Shown here piece by piece: positions 56,142 to 64,000 of a DNA stretch of 64,000 nt. Both the position numbers and the translations under genes were made by a program. The notes below the pieces were generated by a model that was not told where the DNA came from, ran no database searches, and saw only the letters and a list, made by a program, of their open reading frames with translations. This stretch comes from Kaistia soli DSM 19436 (lineage in GTDB: Bacteria > Pseudomonadota > Alphaproteobacteria > Rhizobiales > Kaistiaceae). The DNA lies in the NCBI RefSeq assembly GCF_900129325.1, contig NZ_FQUP01000003.1, positions 1 to 64,000 of the forward strand, in the 5' to 3' direction. How positions within the stretch are numbered: position 1 is the stretch's first letter; the number at the start of each line of letters is the position of its first letter.

Positions 56142-57212
56142 ATGCGTAAATACGTGGTTGCCCTCGGTGCCGTTGCCCTCGTGGCCGGCATGGTTTCGGG
56201 CGCCGAAGCCGCCGACAAGATCAAGGCGTGCTTCGTTTATACCGGACCGCACAATGACGGTGGCTGGAGCCAGCAGCACGACATGGCCCGCCTCGAAGTC
56301 GAAAAGCACTTCGCGGGCAAGGTCGAGACGGCCTATGTCGAGAACGTGCCGGAAGGCCCGGATGCCGAGCGCGCCATCGAGCGTTTCGCCCGGTCGGGCT
56401 GCAACGTGATCTTCACGACCTCGTTCGGCTTCATGGACCCGACGATCAAGGTCGCCAAGAAGTTCCCCGACGTGAAGTTCGAGCATGATGCCGGCTACAA
56501 GACCGCCGACAACGTCTCGATCTACAATATGCGCTGGTATGAGGGCCGCTACGTCCAGGGCCAGATCGCTGCGAAGATGTCGAAGACCGGCGTTGCCGGC
56601 TATATCGTCTCCTTCCCGATCCCTGAGGTCGTGATGGGCATCGATGCCTTCATGCTCGGCGCGCAGTCGGTCAATCCCGACTTCAAGATCAAGGTCGTCT
56701 GGGTCAACACCTGGTTCGATCCTGGCAAGGAAGCGGACGCCGCCAAGGCGCTGATCGACCAGGGCGCGGACATCATTGTCCAGCACACCGACTCGCCGGC
56801 TGCGATGCAGATCGCCGAGGAGCGCGGCCTGCATGCGTTCGGCCAGTCGGCCGACATGTCGAAGTTCGGGCCGAAGGCGCATCTCGCCTCGCTGGTCGAC
56901 AACTGGACGCCCTACTACATCGAGCGCGTCCAGGCGGTTCTCGACGGCACCTGGAAGTCGACCGACACGTGGGATGGCATGAAGGAAGGCCTCGTCGTGC
57001 TCGGGCCGCTCACCAATATGCCGGACGACGTCAAGGCCTTGGCAGAGGACTCGATCGCCAAGATCAAGGCGGGCGAGCTCCAGGTCTTCAAGGGACCGAT
57101 CACCAAGCAGGACGGTTCGGTTGGCGTCGCCGACGGCGCGGTTGCCGACGACAAGACGCTGCTCGGCCTTAACTGGTACGTGAAGGGCATCGACGACAAG
57201 CTGCCGCAGTAG
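56142..57212 (+). CDS. BMP-family substrate-binding protein
   Basis: A 356-residue periplasmic protein. The signal peptide is cleaved near AEA/A at residue 23 and there is no lipobox Cys, so it is soluble. The mature part starts KIKACFVYTGPHNDGGWSQQHD and has FGFMDPTIKVAKKFPDVKFEH and GADIIVQHTDSPAAMQIAE, typical of the PnrA/BmpA group that binds nucleosides or purines. The gene has an AGAGGAAGGA ribosome site and lies after the permeases of the same operon. Binding preference between xanthine, urate, nucleosides or allantoin is not readable. Confidence 0.94.
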   Translation: MRKYVVALGAVALVAGMVSGAEAADKIKACFVYTGPHNDGGWSQQHDMARLEVEKHFAGKVETAYVENVPEGPDAERAIERFARSGCNVIFTTSFGFMDPTIKVAKKFPDVKFEHDAGYKTADNVSIYNMRWYEGRYVQGQIAAKMSKTGVAGYIVSFPIPEVVMGIDAFMLGAQSVNPDFKIKVVWVNTWFDPGKEADAAKALIDQGADIIVQHTDSPAAMQIAEERGLHAFGQSADMSKFGPKAHLASLVDNWTPYYIERVQAVLDGTWKSTDTWDGMKEGLVVLGPLTNMPDDVKALAEDSIAKIKAGELQVFKGPITKQDGSVGVADGAVADDKTLLGLNWYVKGIDDKLPQ

Positions 57213-57222
57213 CGGACGCGCC

Positions 57223-57247
57223 GCGGCGTGCCACGGTGGCACGCCGC
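57223..57247 (+). terminator. long palindromic hairpin between the importer and puuD
   Basis: GCGGCGTGCCAC (57223-57234) pairs perfectly with GTGGCACGCCGC (57236-57247) around one central G; in RNA the stem would be about 10 bp with a short loop. It starts 11 bases after the binding-protein stop. No U run follows, so complete termination is doubtful. A likely use is to end or protect the transporter message. Confidence 0.55.
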
Positions 57248-57311
57248 ATGATTCATGGCCGGTGCCCGCGTGGCGCCGGCCATCACCGCAACGGGGCCGA
57301 ATTCCGCAAAG

Positions 57312-58493
57312 ATGTCCGCATTCGTCGTCGACTGGCTCAATCTCCTCATCCGCTGGTCCCATCTCATCGTGGGCATCGGCTGGATCGGCACCTCGTTCTA
57401 TTTCATCGCGCTGGATCTCTCGCTGAAGAAGCGCGAGCAGATGAACCCGGGCGTCTATGGCACCGCATGGGAGGTTCATGGCGGCGGCTTCTATCATGTC
57501 GAGAAATATCTGGTCGCCCCGCCGGCGCTGCCGTCTGACCTGATCTGGTACAAGTGGGAGGCCTATCTCACATGGGTTTCCGGCTTCCTGCTGCTGATCG
57601 TCCAGTATTATTGGAACGCCAACTCCTTCCTGATCGATCGTTCGGTCCTGCCGCTGCTGCCCTCGCAGGCGATCGTCATCTCGATGCTTTCGCTGGTCGG
57701 CGGCTGGCTGATTTATGACCGGCTGTGCAAGTCGTCGCTTGGCCGCTCGACGCCTGTCCTTGCCGTCTGCCTGTTCATCCTGATCGTCGGCGCGGCGTAT
57801 CTGTTCACGCATGTGTTCTCGGGGCGCGGCGCCTTCATTCATGTTGGCGCGTTCATCGGCACGATCATGGCAGTCAACGTGTTCGGCATCATCGTGCCGA
57901 ACCAGCGCAAGATCGTCGCCTCGCTGCTCGCGCATGAGCCGCCGGATCCGCGCCTCGGCGCCATCGGCAAGCAGCGATCGGTGCACAACAACTATCTGAC
58001 GCTGCCCGTGCTGCTGATGATGGTCTCGAACCACTATCCGTTCCTGACCAGCCATCCGCAGAGCTGGATGATCGTCGCCTTCATCCTGCTGCTTGGCGGC
58101 TCAATCCGGCATTTCCTCAATCGGCATGAGGCGCACGACCCGTTCCTGAAATTCGCCTGGACCCTGCCGGTCGGCATCGTCGCGCTCGGCGTGCTGATCA
58201 GCATGACCGCGCCGAAGCCGCTCGAGATCGCGCCGGGCATGACCGTCTCCGATGCCGATGTTCTCGCGCTGACCGCCAAGCATTGCACCATGTGCCATGC
58301 CGCCAAGCCGACGCATGACGGCTTCGACGCGCCCCCGAAGGGCGTGATGCTGCAGACGACAGCGGAACTGGTGCAGCACAAGGATCAGATCATCGCGCAG
58401 GCGGTGCAGGGCAGGGCGATGCCGCTTGGAAACGAGCACGGCATGACCGACGAGGAGCGCAAGACGCTTGGCGCGTGGCTGCAAAGCCATTAG
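57312..58493 (+). CDS. puuD: urate hydroxylase PuuD (membrane, with cytochrome c domain)
   Basis: A 393-residue protein from the ATG at 57312 (MSAFVVDWLNLLIRW); an ATG at 57255 is in frame but adds residues without family match. Eight membrane helices form the first 300 residues, with SHLIVGIGWIGTSFYFIALD. The C-terminus is a cytochrome c domain with CTMCH at 325-329 and an axial Met near 370 (GRAMPLGN). PuuD oxidises urate to 5-hydroxyisourate and passes electrons to a respiratory cytochrome instead of oxygen, replacing soluble uricase. It is the urate-oxidising step of the cluster. Confidence 0.94.
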   Translation: MSAFVVDWLNLLIRWSHLIVGIGWIGTSFYFIALDLSLKKREQMNPGVYGTAWEVHGGGFYHVEKYLVAPPALPSDLIWYKWEAYLTWVSGFLLLIVQYYWNANSFLIDRSVLPLLPSQAIVISMLSLVGGWLIYDRLCKSSLGRSTPVLAVCLFILIVGAAYLFTHVFSGRGAFIHVGAFIGTIMAVNVFGIIVPNQRKIVASLLAHEPPDPRLGAIGKQRSVHNNYLTLPVLLMMVSNHYPFLTSHPQSWMIVAFILLLGGSIRHFLNRHEAHDPFLKFAWTLPVGIVALGVLISMTAPKPLEIAPGMTVSDADVLALTAKHCTMCHAAKPTHDGFDAPPKGVMLQTTAELVQHKDQIIAQAVQGRAMPLGNEHGMTDEERKTLGAWLQSH

Positions 58494-58530
58494 ACACCAG
58501 CCGGTCGCAACAAGGCCCGCCGGAACGACG

Positions 58531-59049
58531 ATGCAGAATACGCCGCTCTCCCTCGACGCGGTCAATGCCATGAACGAGACGGCCTTTATCGCCTCGTTCG
58601 GCGATATCGCCGAGCACTCCCCCTGGGTCGCCCGCGCGGCCTATGCTGGCCACCCCTTTGCCGATCATGCGGCGTTGGTGGCGGCTTTCCATGCCGCCAT
58701 CGCCGCCGCTCCGCATGAGGCGCAGCTCGCACTCCTCCGTGAGCATCCCGATCTTGCCGGCCGCGCCCGCATCGCAGAGCTGGCCGTCGAATCGCAGGTC
58801 GAGCAGCTCGGCGCGGGACTCGATCGTCTGACGGCCGACGAATATGCCGAGTTCACCCGCCTCAACGAGGCTTATCGGGCGCGGCACGGCATTCCGTTCA
58901 TCCGCGCGGTCAAGGGCTCCACAAAGGAGCAGATCATCGAAGCGTTCCGCGAGCGGCTGCCGAATACGCCGGAGACGGAGTTCGCCATGGCGCTGACGCA
59001 GGTGCAGCGGATCATCCGCTTCCGCCTTGAGGATCGCGTCGCATCATGA
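58531..59049 (+). CDS. uraD: OHCU decarboxylase
   Basis: A 172-residue helical protein that decarboxylates 2-oxo-4-hydroxy-4-carboxy-5-ureidoimidazoline to S-allantoin. Landmarks are GDIAEHSPWVARAAY and LLREHPDLAGRARI, the second with the catalytic His72. SQVEQLGAGLDRLTADEYAEF and GIPFIRAVKGSTKEQIIEAF complete the fold. The ATG at 58531 is preferred over a longer frame. It follows puuD by 37 bp and overlaps the next gene by 4 bp (ATGA), so the order of reactions and genes agrees. Confidence 0.95.
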   Translation: MQNTPLSLDAVNAMNETAFIASFGDIAEHSPWVARAAYAGHPFADHAALVAAFHAAIAAAPHEAQLALLREHPDLAGRARIAELAVESQVEQLGAGLDRLTADEYAEFTRLNEAYRARHGIPFIRAVKGSTKEQIIEAFRERLPNTPETEFAMALTQVQRIIRFRLEDRVAS

Positions 59050-60338
59050 CCATCGTGCCGGCAATCGGACGTCTGACGACACGGCAGATCGGCGAGCGCG
59101 CCCAGGCCATGATCGATGCGCTCTCGGTGATCTCCGCTGACGAGGACGCCCTGACGCGGCTCTATCTGACGCCGGAGCATCGCCACGCCGCCGAGATGGT
59201 CAGCGGCTGGATGGAGGCTGCGGGCCTTTCGGCGCGGATGGACGCTGCTGGGACGGTGCGCGGCGCGATGCCGCCAGCCGCCACTGGCCGCAACAGCAAC
59301 AAGGTGCTGTTGATCGGTTCGCACATCGACACCGTCATTGATGCCGGTCGGTTCGACGGCAATCTTGGCGTCATCGTCGGAATCCTGGCCGTGGAGCAAT
59401 TGCGGGCGCGCGGCATCGCGCTGCCGTTCGGCCTTGAAGTCCTTGCCTTCGGCGATGAGGAGGGCGTCCGCTTTCCGGTGACACTGACCTCGTCCGCAGT
59501 AGCGGCTGGCGTTTTCGACACCAAGGCGCTCGACGTCGCGGACGAGAAAGGCGTCACGTTGCGCGAGGCGCTGATCGCCTTTGGCGGCGATCCGGAGCGG
59601 CTGCGGCAGGAGGCCTATCAGCGTCCGGCGGTGCTAGGCTATCTCGAGGTGCATATCGAGCAGGGGCCGGTCCTGGAGCGCGCGGGCGAGCCGCTGGGCG
59701 TCGTGACCGCCATCGCCAGCCAGAGCCGCCACCGCATCCGCATCCGCGGCGAGGCGGGCCACGCTGGCACCGTCCCGATGGAGATGCGCCACGACGCGCT
59801 CATGGCCGCCGCCGAAATCATGCTGATGGTCGAGGCCATCGCGCGGAAGGGCAAGAAGCATGCTCTGGTTGCAACCGTCGGCCATGTCGAGGTGATGCCC
59901 GGCGCCTCCAACGTAATCCCGGCCGATGTGCGCTTTTCGCTCGACGTCCGCGCCGCGACGGATGAAGCCCGCAAGGCAGCGGTGGAGGAGATCACCCTGT
60001 TCGCGCGCAAGATCGACAAGCGCCGCCACGTCGTCGTCGGTGTCGAGACGATGATGGAGAAGGGCGTCGCAACCTGCGCGCCGCGCCTGACCAAGGCGAT
60101 TGCGGCAGGTGTTGGGGCCGTCCAGGGCAAGCCGGCGCGCAGCCTAATGTCGGGCGCCGGCCATGATGGCCAGTCGATGGTGCAACTCGGCGATTTTGGA
60201 ATGATCTTTGTTCGCTGCCGGGCCGGCATCAGTCATAATCCCAACGAATGGGTGTCGATCGACGACATGGGCGTCGCGGTGGAGGCGCTGGTGGCGACGA
60301 TCGAGGAACTGGGGCGGCAGGAAAGGGCAGGGCGATGA
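59046..60338 (+). CDS. allantoate amidohydrolase-type enzyme (M20 Zn-dependent amidase)
   Basis: A 430-residue amidase of the hydantoinase/carbamoylase group. Metal ligands visible are H93 (GSHIDT), D104 (GRFDGNLG) and E138/E139 (GDEEGVRF). HIEQGPVLERAGEPLG, the linker of the dimerisation domain, lies in the middle, and the C-terminal set is GAGHDGQSM with GISHNPNEW. In a purine cluster this enzyme is expected to hydrolyse allantoate to ureidoglycine and ammonia. N-carbamoyl-beta-alanine or N-carbamoyl amino acid hydrolases are close relatives and cannot be excluded. It is translationally coupled to uraD and to the next gene. Confidence 0.88.
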   Translation: MTIVPAIGRLTTRQIGERAQAMIDALSVISADEDALTRLYLTPEHRHAAEMVSGWMEAAGLSARMDAAGTVRGAMPPAATGRNSNKVLLIGSHIDTVIDAGRFDGNLGVIVGILAVEQLRARGIALPFGLEVLAFGDEEGVRFPVTLTSSAVAAGVFDTKALDVADEKGVTLREALIAFGGDPERLRQEAYQRPAVLGYLEVHIEQGPVLERAGEPLGVVTAIASQSRHRIRIRGEAGHAGTVPMEMRHDALMAAAEIMLMVEAIARKGKKHALVATVGHVEVMPGASNVIPADVRFSLDVRAATDEARKAAVEEITLFARKIDKRRHVVVGVETMMEKGVATCAPRLTKAIAAGVGAVQGKPARSLMSGAGHDGQSMVQLGDFGMIFVRCRAGISHNPNEWVSIDDMGVAVEALVATIEELGRQERAGR

Positions 60339-61552
60339 TCGGCGCGGCGGTCGACAGCCTCTTTGAACGCGAAGTCGCGTTTCTGAAGGCCATGATCCGC
60401 ATCCCGAGTGACAATCCGCCCGGCGATTGCGCCGCGCATGCCGAGGCCGCGACTGCCGCTCTTGAAGCGCTCGGCTTCAGCGTCGAGCAGCATCCCGTCC
60501 CCGAGCCGTTTTCCCGCCAGCATGGCCTTCGCAGCATCATCAACCTGATCGTCCGGAAGACGTTCGGCAGTGGCCTCGGCCCGGTCATCGCGCTCGCCGC
60601 CCATGGCGACGTGGTGCCGCCCGGCGAGGGCTGGAGTACCGATCCGTATGGCGCGGAGGAACGGCATGGCGCCATCTATGGCCGCGGTGCCGCTGTCTCG
60701 AAAGCGGATTTCGCGGCCTATGCCTTTGCGCTTCTGGCGCTAGGCCAGTCCGACAGGGCGCTTGATGGCGGCGTCGAGCTGCATTTCACCTATGACGAGG
60801 AAACGGGCGGCTTTGTGGGGCCGAAATGGCTGCTGGAGCACGGTCTCTCCAAGGCCGACTATGCGATCACGTCGGGCTTCTCTCATGCTGTCGCCACGGC
60901 GCATAGCGGCGTGCTGCATCTTGAAGTCGTTGTTCGCGGCCGGCAGGCACATGCGGCCGTCGCCGCGCTCGGCGCCGACGCGCTCGAAGCGGCGACACCC
61001 GTCCTCGCCGCCATCTATGCCGAGCGCCGCCGCCTGACAGCCATCCGCTCGGATGAGCCGGGCATCGGCGGTCCGCAGATCACCGTTGGTCTCATCTCGG
61101 GCGGCATCAACACCAATGTCGTGCCGGATCGCATTCTGCTCAGGATCGACCGGCGCATCATTACCGAAGAAGACGGCGAGGCCGTCGAGGCTGAGCTGAT
61201 CGGGTTGATCGAGGCGGCGGCGCCCTCGACCCCCGGCATCGAGATCGAATGCCGCCGCATCCTGCTGGCCGAGCCGCTGCGGCCGCTGCCCGGCGTCGAC
61301 AAACTGGTCGAAGCCATCAGGGAACCTGCCGAGGCGCTGTTCGGCGTGCCGATCGCCGTCACAGGCGTGCCGCTCTACACCGATGCGCGCCACTATGCGG
61401 CAGCCGGAATCCCCACGGTGCTTTATGGCGCCGGCCCGCGTTCGATCGCCGACGGCAACGCGCATTCGGCCGACGAGCATATCCGCCTCGACGATCTGCG
61501 CGCGGCCACCGAAGTCATCGCACGGGCGCTTGAGACGTTGCTCGCGCGATAG
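60335..61552 (+). CDS. M20 family deacylase (ArgE/DapE-like), last gene of the purine operon
   Basis: A 405-residue metallopeptidase-fold protein from the ATG at 60335, overlapping the previous stop by 4 bp. The metal site motifs are ALAAHGDVVPPGEGW, YGRGAAVSKADFAAY (the bridging Asp is replaced in the local ARGA motif context) and TYDEETGG with the catalytic Glu pair. IPTVLYGAGPRSIADGNAHSADEH supplies the last ligand region. The substrate is unknown. Its place after allantoate amidohydrolase suggests action on ureidoglycine, ureidoglycolate or a related N-acyl compound rather than acetylornithine. Confidence 0.85.
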   Translation: MIGAAVDSLFEREVAFLKAMIRIPSDNPPGDCAAHAEAATAALEALGFSVEQHPVPEPFSRQHGLRSIINLIVRKTFGSGLGPVIALAAHGDVVPPGEGWSTDPYGAEERHGAIYGRGAAVSKADFAAYAFALLALGQSDRALDGGVELHFTYDEETGGFVGPKWLLEHGLSKADYAITSGFSHAVATAHSGVLHLEVVVRGRQAHAAVAALGADALEAATPVLAAIYAERRRLTAIRSDEPGIGGPQITVGLISGGINTNVVPDRILLRIDRRIITEEDGEAVEAELIGLIEAAAPSTPGIEIECRRILLAEPLRPLPGVDKLVEAIREPAEALFGVPIAVTGVPLYTDARHYAAAGIPTVLYGAGPRSIADGNAHSADEHIRLDDLRAATEVIARALETLLAR

Positions 61553-61579
61553 AGGCAACCTTTCGGACGCCGAGGAACG

Positions 61580-62128
61580 TCAGCGCGCCGGACCGGGCCA
61601 GACTGCTGATGGTGCCGTCTCGTTCAGCGAGCGCCTGATCCCGAGTGCGCCATCCTCGATGCGGATTCGATAGACGAGAAGCGCGATGTTGAGCACGCCG
61701 AACAGCAGGGCCAGCCAAGGTAGGCCGAGCGCACAAGGCAGCAGAGGCATCTCGATCGCGACGATCAGGTAGTTCGGATGCCGCATCAGCCTGTAGGGCC
61801 CGCGGCGGCGAAGCGGCAGGTCGTCGACTGTGATGATACGCGTCGTCCAGAAGGCGCCGAGGCTGGCGATCGTCCAGACCCGCATCACCTGGAGCAGCGC
61901 ATAGACACCCAGGAGGATCCAGGGCACCGGAATACCCGGCTGCACGAACAGCAGCATGGCACCGATCCAGGCGCCATGCAGGAGGATGAACAACGGATAG
62001 TGCCCGGCGCCGATCTCGCGGCCCCGCCGCAACATCAAGGCGCGGCGGTTTCGCTCCGACCAGGCCAGTTCGATGATGCGTTGGATGACAACGAAACCGA
62101 GCAGGAGGTAGGGCCAGAGCATGATCAT
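61580..62128 (-). CDS. isoprenylcysteine carboxyl methyltransferase-family protein
   Basis: A 182-residue membrane protein with four to five hydrophobic segments. The SAM-binding ICMT end is seen as RRRGPYRLMRHPNYLIVAIEM, with the conserved HPNY and the following E. Its ATG overlaps the polyketide synthase stop by 4 bp. In Bacillus BpsB and related loci such proteins methylate alkylpyrones made by an adjacent type III polyketide synthase, so a role as O-methyltransferase of the polyketide is likely. It converges with the M20 gene across 27 bp with no clear terminator. Confidence 0.88.
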   Translation of the reverse strand: MIMLWPYLLLGFVVIQRIIELAWSERNRRALMLRRGREIGAGHYPLFILLHGAWIGAMLLFVQPGIPVPWILLGVYALLQVMRVWTIASLGAFWTTRIITVDDLPLRRRGPYRLMRHPNYLIVAIEMPLLPCALGLPWLALLFGVLNIALLVYRIRIEDGALGIRRSLNETAPSAVWPGPAR

Positions 62129-63237
62129 GCTGCGCCGGATCCGACATGTACCATCTGGAAGGCCGCCGTGAAGCCGGGGCCGAGCGCCGAGAGCAGAAGC
62201 GAGCCCGTCGTGCCGCGGCGGATCAGTTCATCAAGAACGAAGAGCACGGTCGGCGCCGACATATTGCCGTTCTCGCGCAGCACCTTGCGCTCCGCATCGA
62301 GGCCCATCGGCTCGTAGCCGAAGACTTTTTCGAGTTCGTCGACAACCTTGGCGCCGCCGGGATGGCAGCAGGGGCGATCGATGTCGTCGGGGGAAAGGCC
62401 GGCGCTCCCGAGAAAGCCCTCGAGCGCGCCCGGCATGTCGCGCGAGACGATTTCGGGAATGCTCTGCTTGAAGATGACGTCCAGTCCCTGGCCGTCGACA
62501 TCCCAGCCCATGACATCGAGCGTATCGGGCCAGCAGTGTTCACCACCGGCGCCGATCATCACAGCGCTGTCCGCGGCGCTGCCGCTTTCAAGCACGGCAG
62601 CGGCGCCGCCATCGCCGAACAGGGCGCAGGCGACGAGGTTGCTCTTGGTGATGCGGTCGTAGCGAAACGCCAGCGACGAGAACTCCACGACGATGAGCAG
62701 GCACCTGCTCCCCGGCATGGCCCGCGCCATCTGCGCGGCACGGCTGAGGCCGAGAACGCCGCCGGCGCAGCCGAGGCCGAAAATCGGCAGTCGCACGACA
62801 TCGCGCCGGAACGGCATCTCGTTCATGATGCGCGCCTCAATGCTCGGCGTCGAAATGCCGGTCGACGACACGAACACAATCTGGTCGATGTCCTCCGCCT
62901 TCAGTCCCGCAGCCTCGAGCGCCTTCTCAGCCGCCTTGCGGGCGAGGGCGGTGGCGTTCTTGACGTAGAGCTTCGTCTTTTCGCCGAAATCGGCCTCGCC
63001 CATGAACCATTCGACGGGAAGACAGGAATGGCGCGTGTCGATGGCGGCGTTGTCGAACACCTGCTGCAACTGATCAAAGAATGGCATGCGGCTGCCGAAG
63101 ACCTCGCGGGCCCGCTCACGCGCCACGATCTGCGGCACGTGATGATCGGGGGTAACCGTGACGAGCGAGCGAAGGGTCACCGACGGCGGCACGAGGTGCT
63201 GCGCCGCCGCCAGATCGAGAGGACGCTGAAGCGTCAT
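62125..63237 (-). CDS. type III polyketide synthase (chalcone synthase family)
   Basis: A 370-residue homodimeric thiolase-fold enzyme. The catalytic triad is Cys157 (FGLGCAGGVLG), His292 (CCHPGGAKV) and Asn325 (ENGNMSAPT). The family ending GLSLL-type motif appears as SLLLSALGPGFTAAF. Bacterial members of this kind extend a long-chain acyl-CoA with malonyl-CoA to alkylpyrones or alkylresorcinols. No acyl carrier protein or other PKS gene is present. The methyltransferase gene is translationally coupled downstream. The expected product is an O-methylated lipidic pyrone or resorcinol in the membrane. Confidence 0.94.
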   Translation of the reverse strand: MTLQRPLDLAAAQHLVPPSVTLRSLVTVTPDHHVPQIVARERAREVFGSRMPFFDQLQQVFDNAAIDTRHSCLPVEWFMGEADFGEKTKLYVKNATALARKAAEKALEAAGLKAEDIDQIVFVSSTGISTPSIEARIMNEMPFRRDVVRLPIFGLGCAGGVLGLSRAAQMARAMPGSRCLLIVVEFSSLAFRYDRITKSNLVACALFGDGGAAAVLESGSAADSAVMIGAGGEHCWPDTLDVMGWDVDGQGLDVIFKQSIPEIVSRDMPGALEGFLGSAGLSPDDIDRPCCHPGGAKVVDELEKVFGYEPMGLDAERKVLRENGNMSAPTVLFVLDELIRRGTTGSLLLSALGPGFTAAFQMVHVGSGAA

Positions 63238-63264
63238 GAGATCGGTCTTTCTGCTCGGGGGCGC

Positions 63265-63840
63265 TTATTCGTGCCCGGTTGTGAGGAAGTTGGAGAGGTC
63301 CTGGTACTGCTCGCAACTAGTATTGCCGCATAGCTTTGCCAGTGTGGCGAGTTCGGCCTTCGCTTCCTCGATCCGGCCGGCAGTCGCATAGCCTTCGCCG
63401 AGATATTCGCGCGTATTGAGATTGTCGGGCTCGAGTTCGAGCGCCTGCTTGTAGTAGCCGATGCCGACATCGACGTCGCCCATCTTGCGGTGGCTGTAGC
63501 CGATATAGGTCAGGACCGTCGCATCTTTCTTGTTGCCGACGGCGTCTAGCACCGCGAGCGCGTTGTCATAGTAGCCGGCGAGGGCGAGGGCACGACCCTG
63601 CTGTGTCAACTCCTTGTCCGACAGGCTGCCCGATTGCGCCTTGACGCAGCGCTCCAGAGCCTTCGACCAGACGAGGCCCTTCCTGCAGACCTGATTGGCG
63701 GGCATCCCGCCGCTGCCGCTGCTTCCGCCTCCGCTGCCGCCACCTCCACCGCCGCTCGCGGCCGCTGCGGGCAGGGCGGCCAGCACCGAGATTCCGACCG
63801 CGAGAGCGGTTCGCGTTGCAAAGCCGAACATGTTAGTCAT
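63265..63840 (-). CDS. exported TPR-repeat protein
   Basis: 191 residues from the ATG at 63838-63840, which has GGAGG 5 bases upstream. A signal peptide ends near residue 28 (PAAAA/S). A Gly/Ser-rich linker (about 29-45) follows. Two cysteines, Cys51 and Cys64, bracket KGLVWSKALER. Three to four TPR units fill about 75-165 (ALAGYYDNALAVLDAVGN, TYIGYSHRKMGDVDVGIGYY). It is periplasmic and probably mediates protein contacts. It lies 27 bp upstream of the polyketide synthase on the same strand, and a possible sigma factor gene diverges from it. Confidence 0.85.
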   Translation of the reverse strand: MTNMFGFATRTALAVGISVLAALPAAAASGGGGGGSGGGSSGSGGMPANQVCRKGLVWSKALERCVKAQSGSLSDKELTQQGRALALAGYYDNALAVLDAVGNKKDATVLTYIGYSHRKMGDVDVGIGYYKQALELEPDNLNTREYLGEGYATAGRIEEAKAELATLAKLCGNTSCEQYQDLSNFLTTGHE

Positions 63841-63884
63841 CGTCACCTCCAGCGCATCCTCGCCGCGATCGGCGTGGTCTGTGC

Positions 63885-64000
63885 ATGAACACGCGCTCCC
63901 AGCCGCCTATTCGCATCCCGATGAACAACAGCAGTCACGATGATGTGAGATTGGGGCTGAGGCCGTCATTGCCCGCGCTCTGGCGCTTCGCTCTCGTGCT
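63885..64000 (+). CDS. possible ECF sigma factor, N-terminus only (cut by window edge)
   Basis: The frame is open from ATGs at 63885 and 63921 to the end of the window. From 63921 it reads NNSSHDDVRLGLRPS and then LPALWRFALVL. The LPxLxRFALxL stretch is how region 2 of many alphaproteobacterial ECF sigma factors begins. The rest lies outside. It diverges from the TPR gene. The call depends on about ten residues and may be wrong. Confidence 0.45.
   Translation, partial: MNTRSQPPIRIPMNNSSHDDVRLGLRPSLPALWRFALV

Follow-up and report, generated by a model that had tools for sequence, protein, structure and literature searches.

Genes and domains at the locus

The window analysed here, the first 64,000 nucleotides of contig NZ_FQUP01000003.1 of Kaistia soli DSM 19436, ends within a group of five genes (Table 1). 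A sequence-only reading had placed the overlapping frames of a type III polyketide synthase and an ICMT-type methyltransferase in this region, an assignment borne out by both ORF reading and Pfam. The two frames share the sequence ATGA (62125-62128, a 4-bp overlap), the chalcone-synthase domains PF00195 (3.4e-23) and PF02797 (2.7e-13) of the synthase are over the Pfam cut-off, and the methyltransferase matches PF04140 (1.2e-18). Two PF00195 matches are present in the K. soli genome, only this synthase being over the cut-off. The Cys-His-Asn triad of the synthase is kept in 114/114 survey synthases, while an alignment of 15 ICMT sequences reveals invariant His-Pro-Asn-Tyr (residues 117-120) and Glu158; a profile search with the ICMT matched PDB 4a2n at E 2.4e-5. 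The synthase is present in 14/14 Kaistia genomes, with 64-91% identity between the K. soli protein and the 13 others, and the 4-bp overlap was seen in 11 of the 14, K. soli included. The arrangement is thus of the bpsA-bpsB kind, as had been suggested, with the synthase followed directly by an ICMT-family methyltransferase. BpsB itself is a member of the ICMT family. The adjoining part of the window (56142-61552) is a purine-breakdown neighbourhood that is largely kept across the Kaistia loci, with ORFs identified by eye as a BMP-type binding protein, a urate-oxidase-like membrane protein, an OHCU decarboxylase-like protein and an M20-type amidohydrolase.

Table 1 Features of the synthase locus and the adjoining sigma/anti-sigma genes, in window positions unless stated otherwise.
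Feature	Position	Strand	Remarks
ICMT-family integral membrane methyltransferase	61580-62128	minus	182 aa; PF04140
Type III polyketide synthase	62125-63237	minus	370 aa; Cys157-His292-Asn325, Trp245 at cyclisation position
Exported TPR protein	63265-63840	minus	two conserved Cys pairs; ORF reaches 63846 with GTG
ECF26-like promoter element GAATA-N16-TGTTC	63887-63912	minus	faces the TPR-synthase-methyltransferase genes
ECF sigma factor gene	63921-64000, on to contig 64442	plus	alternative ORF start 63885 (L041:7886-8443)
Anti-sigma gene	contig 64429-65244, beyond the window	plus	after sigma (L041:8430-9245)

Distribution of the pair and placement of the synthase

With a profile of 18 relatives (E <= 1e-25), 85 of the 385 class genomes, K. 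soli among them, gave a synthase match. For the class set, 80 of the 85 places outside K. soli were fetched, leaving out the second piece of G288 as well as G400, G408, G415 and G172; the survey also took 33 places from a search of relatives and one MAG locus (L039). A pair was scored where an ICMT gene lies on the same strand within 150 nt after the synthase. Among synthases of at least 330 bits this neighbour is found in 90/99 cases overall (14 of the 90 being Kaistia), in 68/70 of the class set and in 22/29 of the relatives set (14 of the 22 being Kaistia). It follows 1/15 of the weaker synthases, namely L126, where the synthase is in two pieces. As for the exceptions, the fetched stretch of L112 stops 48 nt past the synthase, a TPR gene lies between synthase and ICMT in L117, the ICMT is on the opposite strand in L062, L063 and L065, and no ICMT was seen in the stretches of L059 and L066-L068. 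In L066-L068 the more distant synthase lies beside genes that resemble, by eye, a UbiA-like prenyltransferase and an isopentenyl-diphosphate isomerase, neighbours that may point to prenylation of the product.

Such synthase-ICMT pairs are already annotated on plasmids from Phyllobacterium, Alloyangia and Azospirillum; Rhizobium etli p42d has a synthase with no ICMT listed beside it, in a gene table that is incomplete. Products of this kind had been called little described in Hyphomicrobiales. A rare pair is ruled out by the 90/99 synthases with the same neighbour: the pair itself is ordinary, and its regulation is the unusual part. Our literature search, covering titles and the starts of abstracts, found no product or trigger for ICMT-paired alphaproteobacterial type III synthases. 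One alphaproteobacterial type III synthase with a known product is RpsA of Rhodospirillum centenum.

The ICMT is presumed to O-methylate the synthase product. Were it to act instead on another lipid or a protein, the 7/29 relatives-set loci in which the two genes are not adjacent on one strand would be readily accommodated. We consider this distinctly improbable in view of the near-constant adjacency of the genes, the often overlapping frames, and an ICMT score of 19.3 bits against NCBIfam NF040696 (protein-S-isoprenylcysteine methyltransferase), far under the equivalog cut-off of 160. There is also the precedent of B. subtilis bpsA-bpsB, whose products according to the available part of the report are a C15 alkylpyrone and a variant carrying a methyl on the 4-hydroxy group, with effects on biofilm and sporulation (PMC5686519).

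By sequence, the closest solved relative of the synthase is Pks11 of Mycobacterium tuberculosis, with 180 bits for the single sequence and 291 bits with a profile. The profile search of the PDB next returned THNS (1u0m, 263 bits), and Steely1 and PKS18 (253 bits each). Trp245 of the Kaistia synthase aligns with Pks11 Trp230, the same position being occupied by Trp in Steely1, Tyr in THNS and Leu in PKS18. The accessible portion of a Mycobacterium marinum paper describes Trp at this position as essential for the resorcinol products of ArsB and as kept in FtpA, SrsA, PKS10 and PKS11 (PMC5916927). The residue only hints at resorcinols, because 114/114 survey synthases from several clades carry it and it does not discriminate among them. 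The sequence-only reading had pointed to bpsA-bpsB of Bacillus, where the products are alkylpyrones, and had named alkylpyrones or alkylresorcinols as compounds to look for. Alkylresorcinols appear at least as likely as alkylpyrones from the sequence, because Pks11 is the closest solved relative and Trp245 stands at a resorcinol-linked position.

Synthases of the phloroglucinol, dihydroxyphenylacetate or tetrahydroxynaphthalene type, acting on small starters, present another option, in that DpgA (NF042429) is the top NCBIfam match and THNS ranks behind the chains of Pks11 when the profile is searched against the PDB. We regard this assignment as highly improbable: the DpgA match of 145.7 bits is far under the cut-off of 425, Pks11 outscores THNS, THNS has Tyr where the Kaistia synthase has Trp, and a methyltransferase in the membrane is a fitting partner for an enzyme that makes a lipid.

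Phylogenetic placement had been proposed as a check on the synthase. We computed a quick maximum-likelihood tree with SH-aLRT support only, from which 10 of the 15 synthases scoring below 330 bits were omitted. All Kaistia synthases group together (support 97), with that of the Rhodobacteraceae MAG L039 as sister (99), and both are nested in an alphaproteobacterial clade of 97 rows (99). Pks11 is not part of this clade; it is on a long branch, and its place is unsure. Sister to the Kaistia-L039 clade is one of 14 rows (98) that contains the L061 synthase, and the two add up to 29 rows (98). The synthase of L176 is found in a different clade, on the PKS18/THNS side (100).

The sigma/anti-sigma module and a conserved promoter-like element

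The sigma and anti-sigma genes are divergent from the TPR gene. The sigma factor matches PF08281 (1.3e-15) and PF04542 (1.6e-10), and among the NCBIfam matches listed (best 25 of 76) only the superfamily TIGR02937 is over its cut-off. The anti-sigma protein has no Pfam match, and its match to NCBIfam NF052375 (1.2e-6) is under the cut-off. The L033 orthologue of the anti-sigma protein was modelled with AlphaFold from six sequences. The model is weak overall (mean pLDDT 64): a helical part at the N-terminus is followed by a stretch of poor quality, where a membrane span is likely, and by an alpha/beta domain on the periplasmic side, with block means of 77-90 over residues 181-260. Foldseek returned five rows at E <= 0.001, of which four are RseB. 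Fold comparison of the periplasmic part likewise placed RseB best (Z 9.2 over 95 residues, 2.9 Å), followed by MucB (Z 8.4) and rows at 7.6 and 6.4. The periplasmic domain is thus predicted to resemble the envelope sensor RseB/MucB; a common fold does not show that the signal is the same.

The TPR protein contains TPR repeats (Pfam) and, by eye, a signal-peptide-like N-terminus, with the best start being the ATG preceded by GGAGG. It had been suggested to be part of the synthase unit, and its position upstream on the same strand, with a gap of 27 nt to the synthase in K. soli, supports this. In 5/14 Kaistia (L046, L048, L049, L051 and L053) about 550-620 nt separate the end of the last TPR gene from the synthase match, and co-transcription of the two is therefore uncertain in these five. 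The TPR gene is duplicated in four Kaistia genomes (L046, L050, L051 and L052), and in L046, L051 and L053 the stretch from TPR to the synthase holds a member of a family of small, exported-looking, Cys-containing ORFs (e.g. L046:7602-7976). Weaker TPR-profile matches adjoin the pair in L117 and L151, where other TPR proteins lie between synthase and ICMT (L117:6448-6927) or just after them (L151:8818-9114), and are more than 6 kb away in L154 and L177.

Profiles for sigma, anti-sigma and TPR were built from Kaistia and L061 proteins. All three module parts were found beside a synthase in 14/14 Kaistia, in L061, which belongs to a different family of the order, and in L176, placed elsewhere in the class; of these only L176 is an independent match given the origin of the profiles. 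L176:6959-10735 presents TPR, sigma, anti-sigma, cytochrome b561 and type III synthase genes in one row on one strand. Relatives of the anti-sigma protein (E <= 1e-10) are present in 25/385 class genomes and 33/61 relatives, K. soli being included in both. We fetched 20 further anti-sigma loci, picked among the strongest matches not beside a synthase, and found a synthase or ICMT in 0/20 of these stretches. A divergent TPR gene (>180 bits) was present in seven of them and a weaker TPR match in two. The TPR protein as a synthase-specific partner was consequently rejected as the primary reading: it accompanies sigma/anti-sigma in seven synthase-less loci, and therefore belongs first with the ECF pair, mostly outside the window, with the synthase pair joined behind. 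For two adjacencies among the 21 non-Kaistia genomes that have both parts, a rough estimate gives 0.09 expected by chance (P 0.004), making two chance adjacencies unlikely. Module and synthase have been joined at least twice, because the L176 synthase is of a different clade; beside L176, Kaistia and L061 may represent two joinings, or one with many losses.

The TGTTC of the promoter-like element ends 46 nt before the TPR ATG, and its complement abuts the sigma start codon. GAATA-N16-TGTTY faces the TPR gene in 14/14 Kaistia sigma-TPR intergenic stretches, whereas spacers of 12-15 and 17-20 each occur in 0/14 over the 130 nt upstream of TPR. The spacer has a mean pairwise identity of 50% among the Kaistia sites, a comparison with the boxes that is partly circular as the sites were picked by their boxes. 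According to the available part of the source, the ECF26 promoter consensus is -35 GGAATA and -10 GT (PMC6180224); the element has 5/6 bases of this -35 together with the -10 GT, the base before GAATA being C in the window rather than G. A scan of 61300-64000 for sigma-70-like promoters was negative.

It was on these same Kaistia loci that the spacer-16 rule first emerged, leaving L061 and L176 as independent cases. L061 carries separate element copies upstream of TPR and upstream of the synthase, and L176 one copy upstream of TPR that ends TGTTG. The second TPR copies of L046, L050, L051 and L052 all carry the element, three with CGTT for TGTT. The fetched loci, 3.6 Mb with both strands counted, contain 51 occurrences of GAATA-N16-YGTT, or 0.014 per kb. 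In the 300 nt upstream of non-Kaistia synthases, for which 98 of 100 loci had enough upstream DNA, the element is present with spacer 16 in 4/98 (L061, L063, L114 and L151) and with each other spacer from 13 to 19 in 0 to 2 of 98. Its association with the anti-sigma gene (4/4 versus 19/95 loci, Fisher 0.0024) is post hoc and includes the weak anti-sigma match G270 (E 3.7e-12). Within 500 nt of the Kaistia synthases there is no separate element of spacer 16.

Read in the other direction, as GAACA-N16-TATTC, the element could have been a promoter for sigma only. This was rejected, as L061, L176 and four TPR paralogues carry it before TPR or synthase; the near-constant distance of 6-9 nt from the element to the sigma ATG (judged by eye, with variants in L230 and L236) keeps open a second use as the promoter of sigma itself.

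The exact pattern occurs at three sites in the K. soli genome against four for the reversed control (three against three for a stricter pattern), so that no regulon can be called from one genome; the Kaistia genus total is 69 against 17 for reversed. A site recurring in 12/14 Kaistia was discounted as coding constraint, since in the loci read it lies antisense within an ORF of 450-479 aa. A second recurrent site, GAATA-N16-TGTTT, is present in 7/14 Kaistia; in L246, L256 and L262, the three loci read (with the site at 1501 in each), it lies upstream of a membrane-protein ORF that appears to be the same one. In L262 this ORF is DoxX (PF07681), a possible further sigma target judging by the site upstream.

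A proposed envelope-stress circuit and its known counterparts

We propose that the five genes probably form one switch-and-output unit, through which envelope stress would induce a methylated lipid of phenolic or pyrone type. The anti-sigma protein would reside in the inner membrane, its cytoplasmic N-terminus holding the ECF sigma and its RseB/MucB-like periplasmic domain sensing the envelope. Upon envelope stress the sigma would be released to read GAATA-N16-TGTTY towards the genes for the exported TPR protein, synthase and ICMT, and perhaps also to drive its own operon in the opposite direction. From long-chain acyl-CoA and malonyl-CoA the synthase would form, by condensation, an alkylresorcinol or alkylpyrone whose O-methylation by the membrane methyltransferase would yield a lipid altering the membrane.

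An ordinary lipid pair, producing a methylated alkylpyrone or resorcinol as BpsA-BpsB do, could alternatively be under other control, with the sigma/TPR module adjoining it by descent in Kaistia and regulating other envelope genes. The pair is common without the module, only the 14 Kaistia loci and L061 among the 99 synthases of at least 330 bits having all three parts in the fetched stretch; the module in turn occurs without a synthase in 20/20 further loci, and genus-wide synteny can be inertia. However, the recurrence of the module beside a synthase in L061 and L176, the element copy belonging to the L061 synthase and the short TPR-synthase gap in K. soli make such separate control rather unlikely. 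Taking the switch-and-output unit a step further, we tentatively suggest a self-contained feedback circuit made of an anti-sigma whose own RseB/MucB-like domain would sense lipids or lipoproteins, an ECF26-like sigma, an exported TPR co-sensor and a synthase-ICMT pair that would remodel the very membrane being sensed. Within Alphaproteobacteria this circuit would have joined synthases on at least two occasions, or perhaps three if Kaistia, L061 and L176 each count as one.

The enzymes and the type of regulator are known, and the wiring appears new: titles and abstract starts in the literature searched contained no adjacent ECF switch for a type III synthase-methyltransferase pair. Synthases of this kind occur widely in Alphaproteobacteria, as the class search indicates, and a dedicated sigma switch offers a practical handle, in that deletion of the anti-sigma gene should bring out a silent lipid.

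In comparison with bpsA-bpsB, the Kaistia pair is similarly a two-gene operon of type III synthase and methyltransferase, a likeness in gene arrangement, but belongs to another phylum and has an ECF sigma module and an exported TPR gene attached. Pks11 shares the Trp of the Kaistia enzyme and, in the tree, lies outside the alphaproteobacterial clade. The Acetobacteraceae synthases are reported with a methyltransferase and an FAD monooxygenase, and with product unknown, in the part of that work available (PMC8776678). For the ECF26 systems of Sinorhizobium meliloti, the available part of the source describes an anti-sigma gene located downstream, encoding an N-terminal anti-sigma domain, a membrane span and a periplasmic C-terminal domain. 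The targets given there are sulfite handling, protease, glyoxylase and hypothetical genes, with no type III synthase named (PMC6180224). The pairs RpoE1, RpoE3, RpoE4 and RpoE6 may resemble the Kaistia system in promoter, apart from the C before GAATA in the window, and in the predicted architecture of the downstream anti-sigma. The gene order and predicted model of the Kaistia anti-sigma agree with this architecture, model confidence being low at residues 74-130.

A further parallel is offered by AlgU. It is a global regulator with other targets too, and in Pseudomonas its brake includes MucB, whose fold resembles that predicted for the Kaistia anti-sigma sensor domain. Azotobacter vinelandii lacking the ECF sigma AlgU is missing ArsA, ArsB and ArsC, with arsA and arsB mRNA abolished, according to the accessible part of the report (PMC10651043). 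Expression of type III synthases there needs an ECF sigma, a dependence that we propose for Kaistia too. In contrast to Azotobacter, the Kaistia sigma genes are adjacent, the RseB/MucB-like domain is inside the anti-sigma protein, and the partner of the synthase is an ICMT. If our proposal is true, the idea from Azotobacter that ECF stress sigmas command phenolic lipids would gain a second wiring, one that would be local in Kaistia as opposed to the AlgU control of Azotobacter alkylresorcinols.
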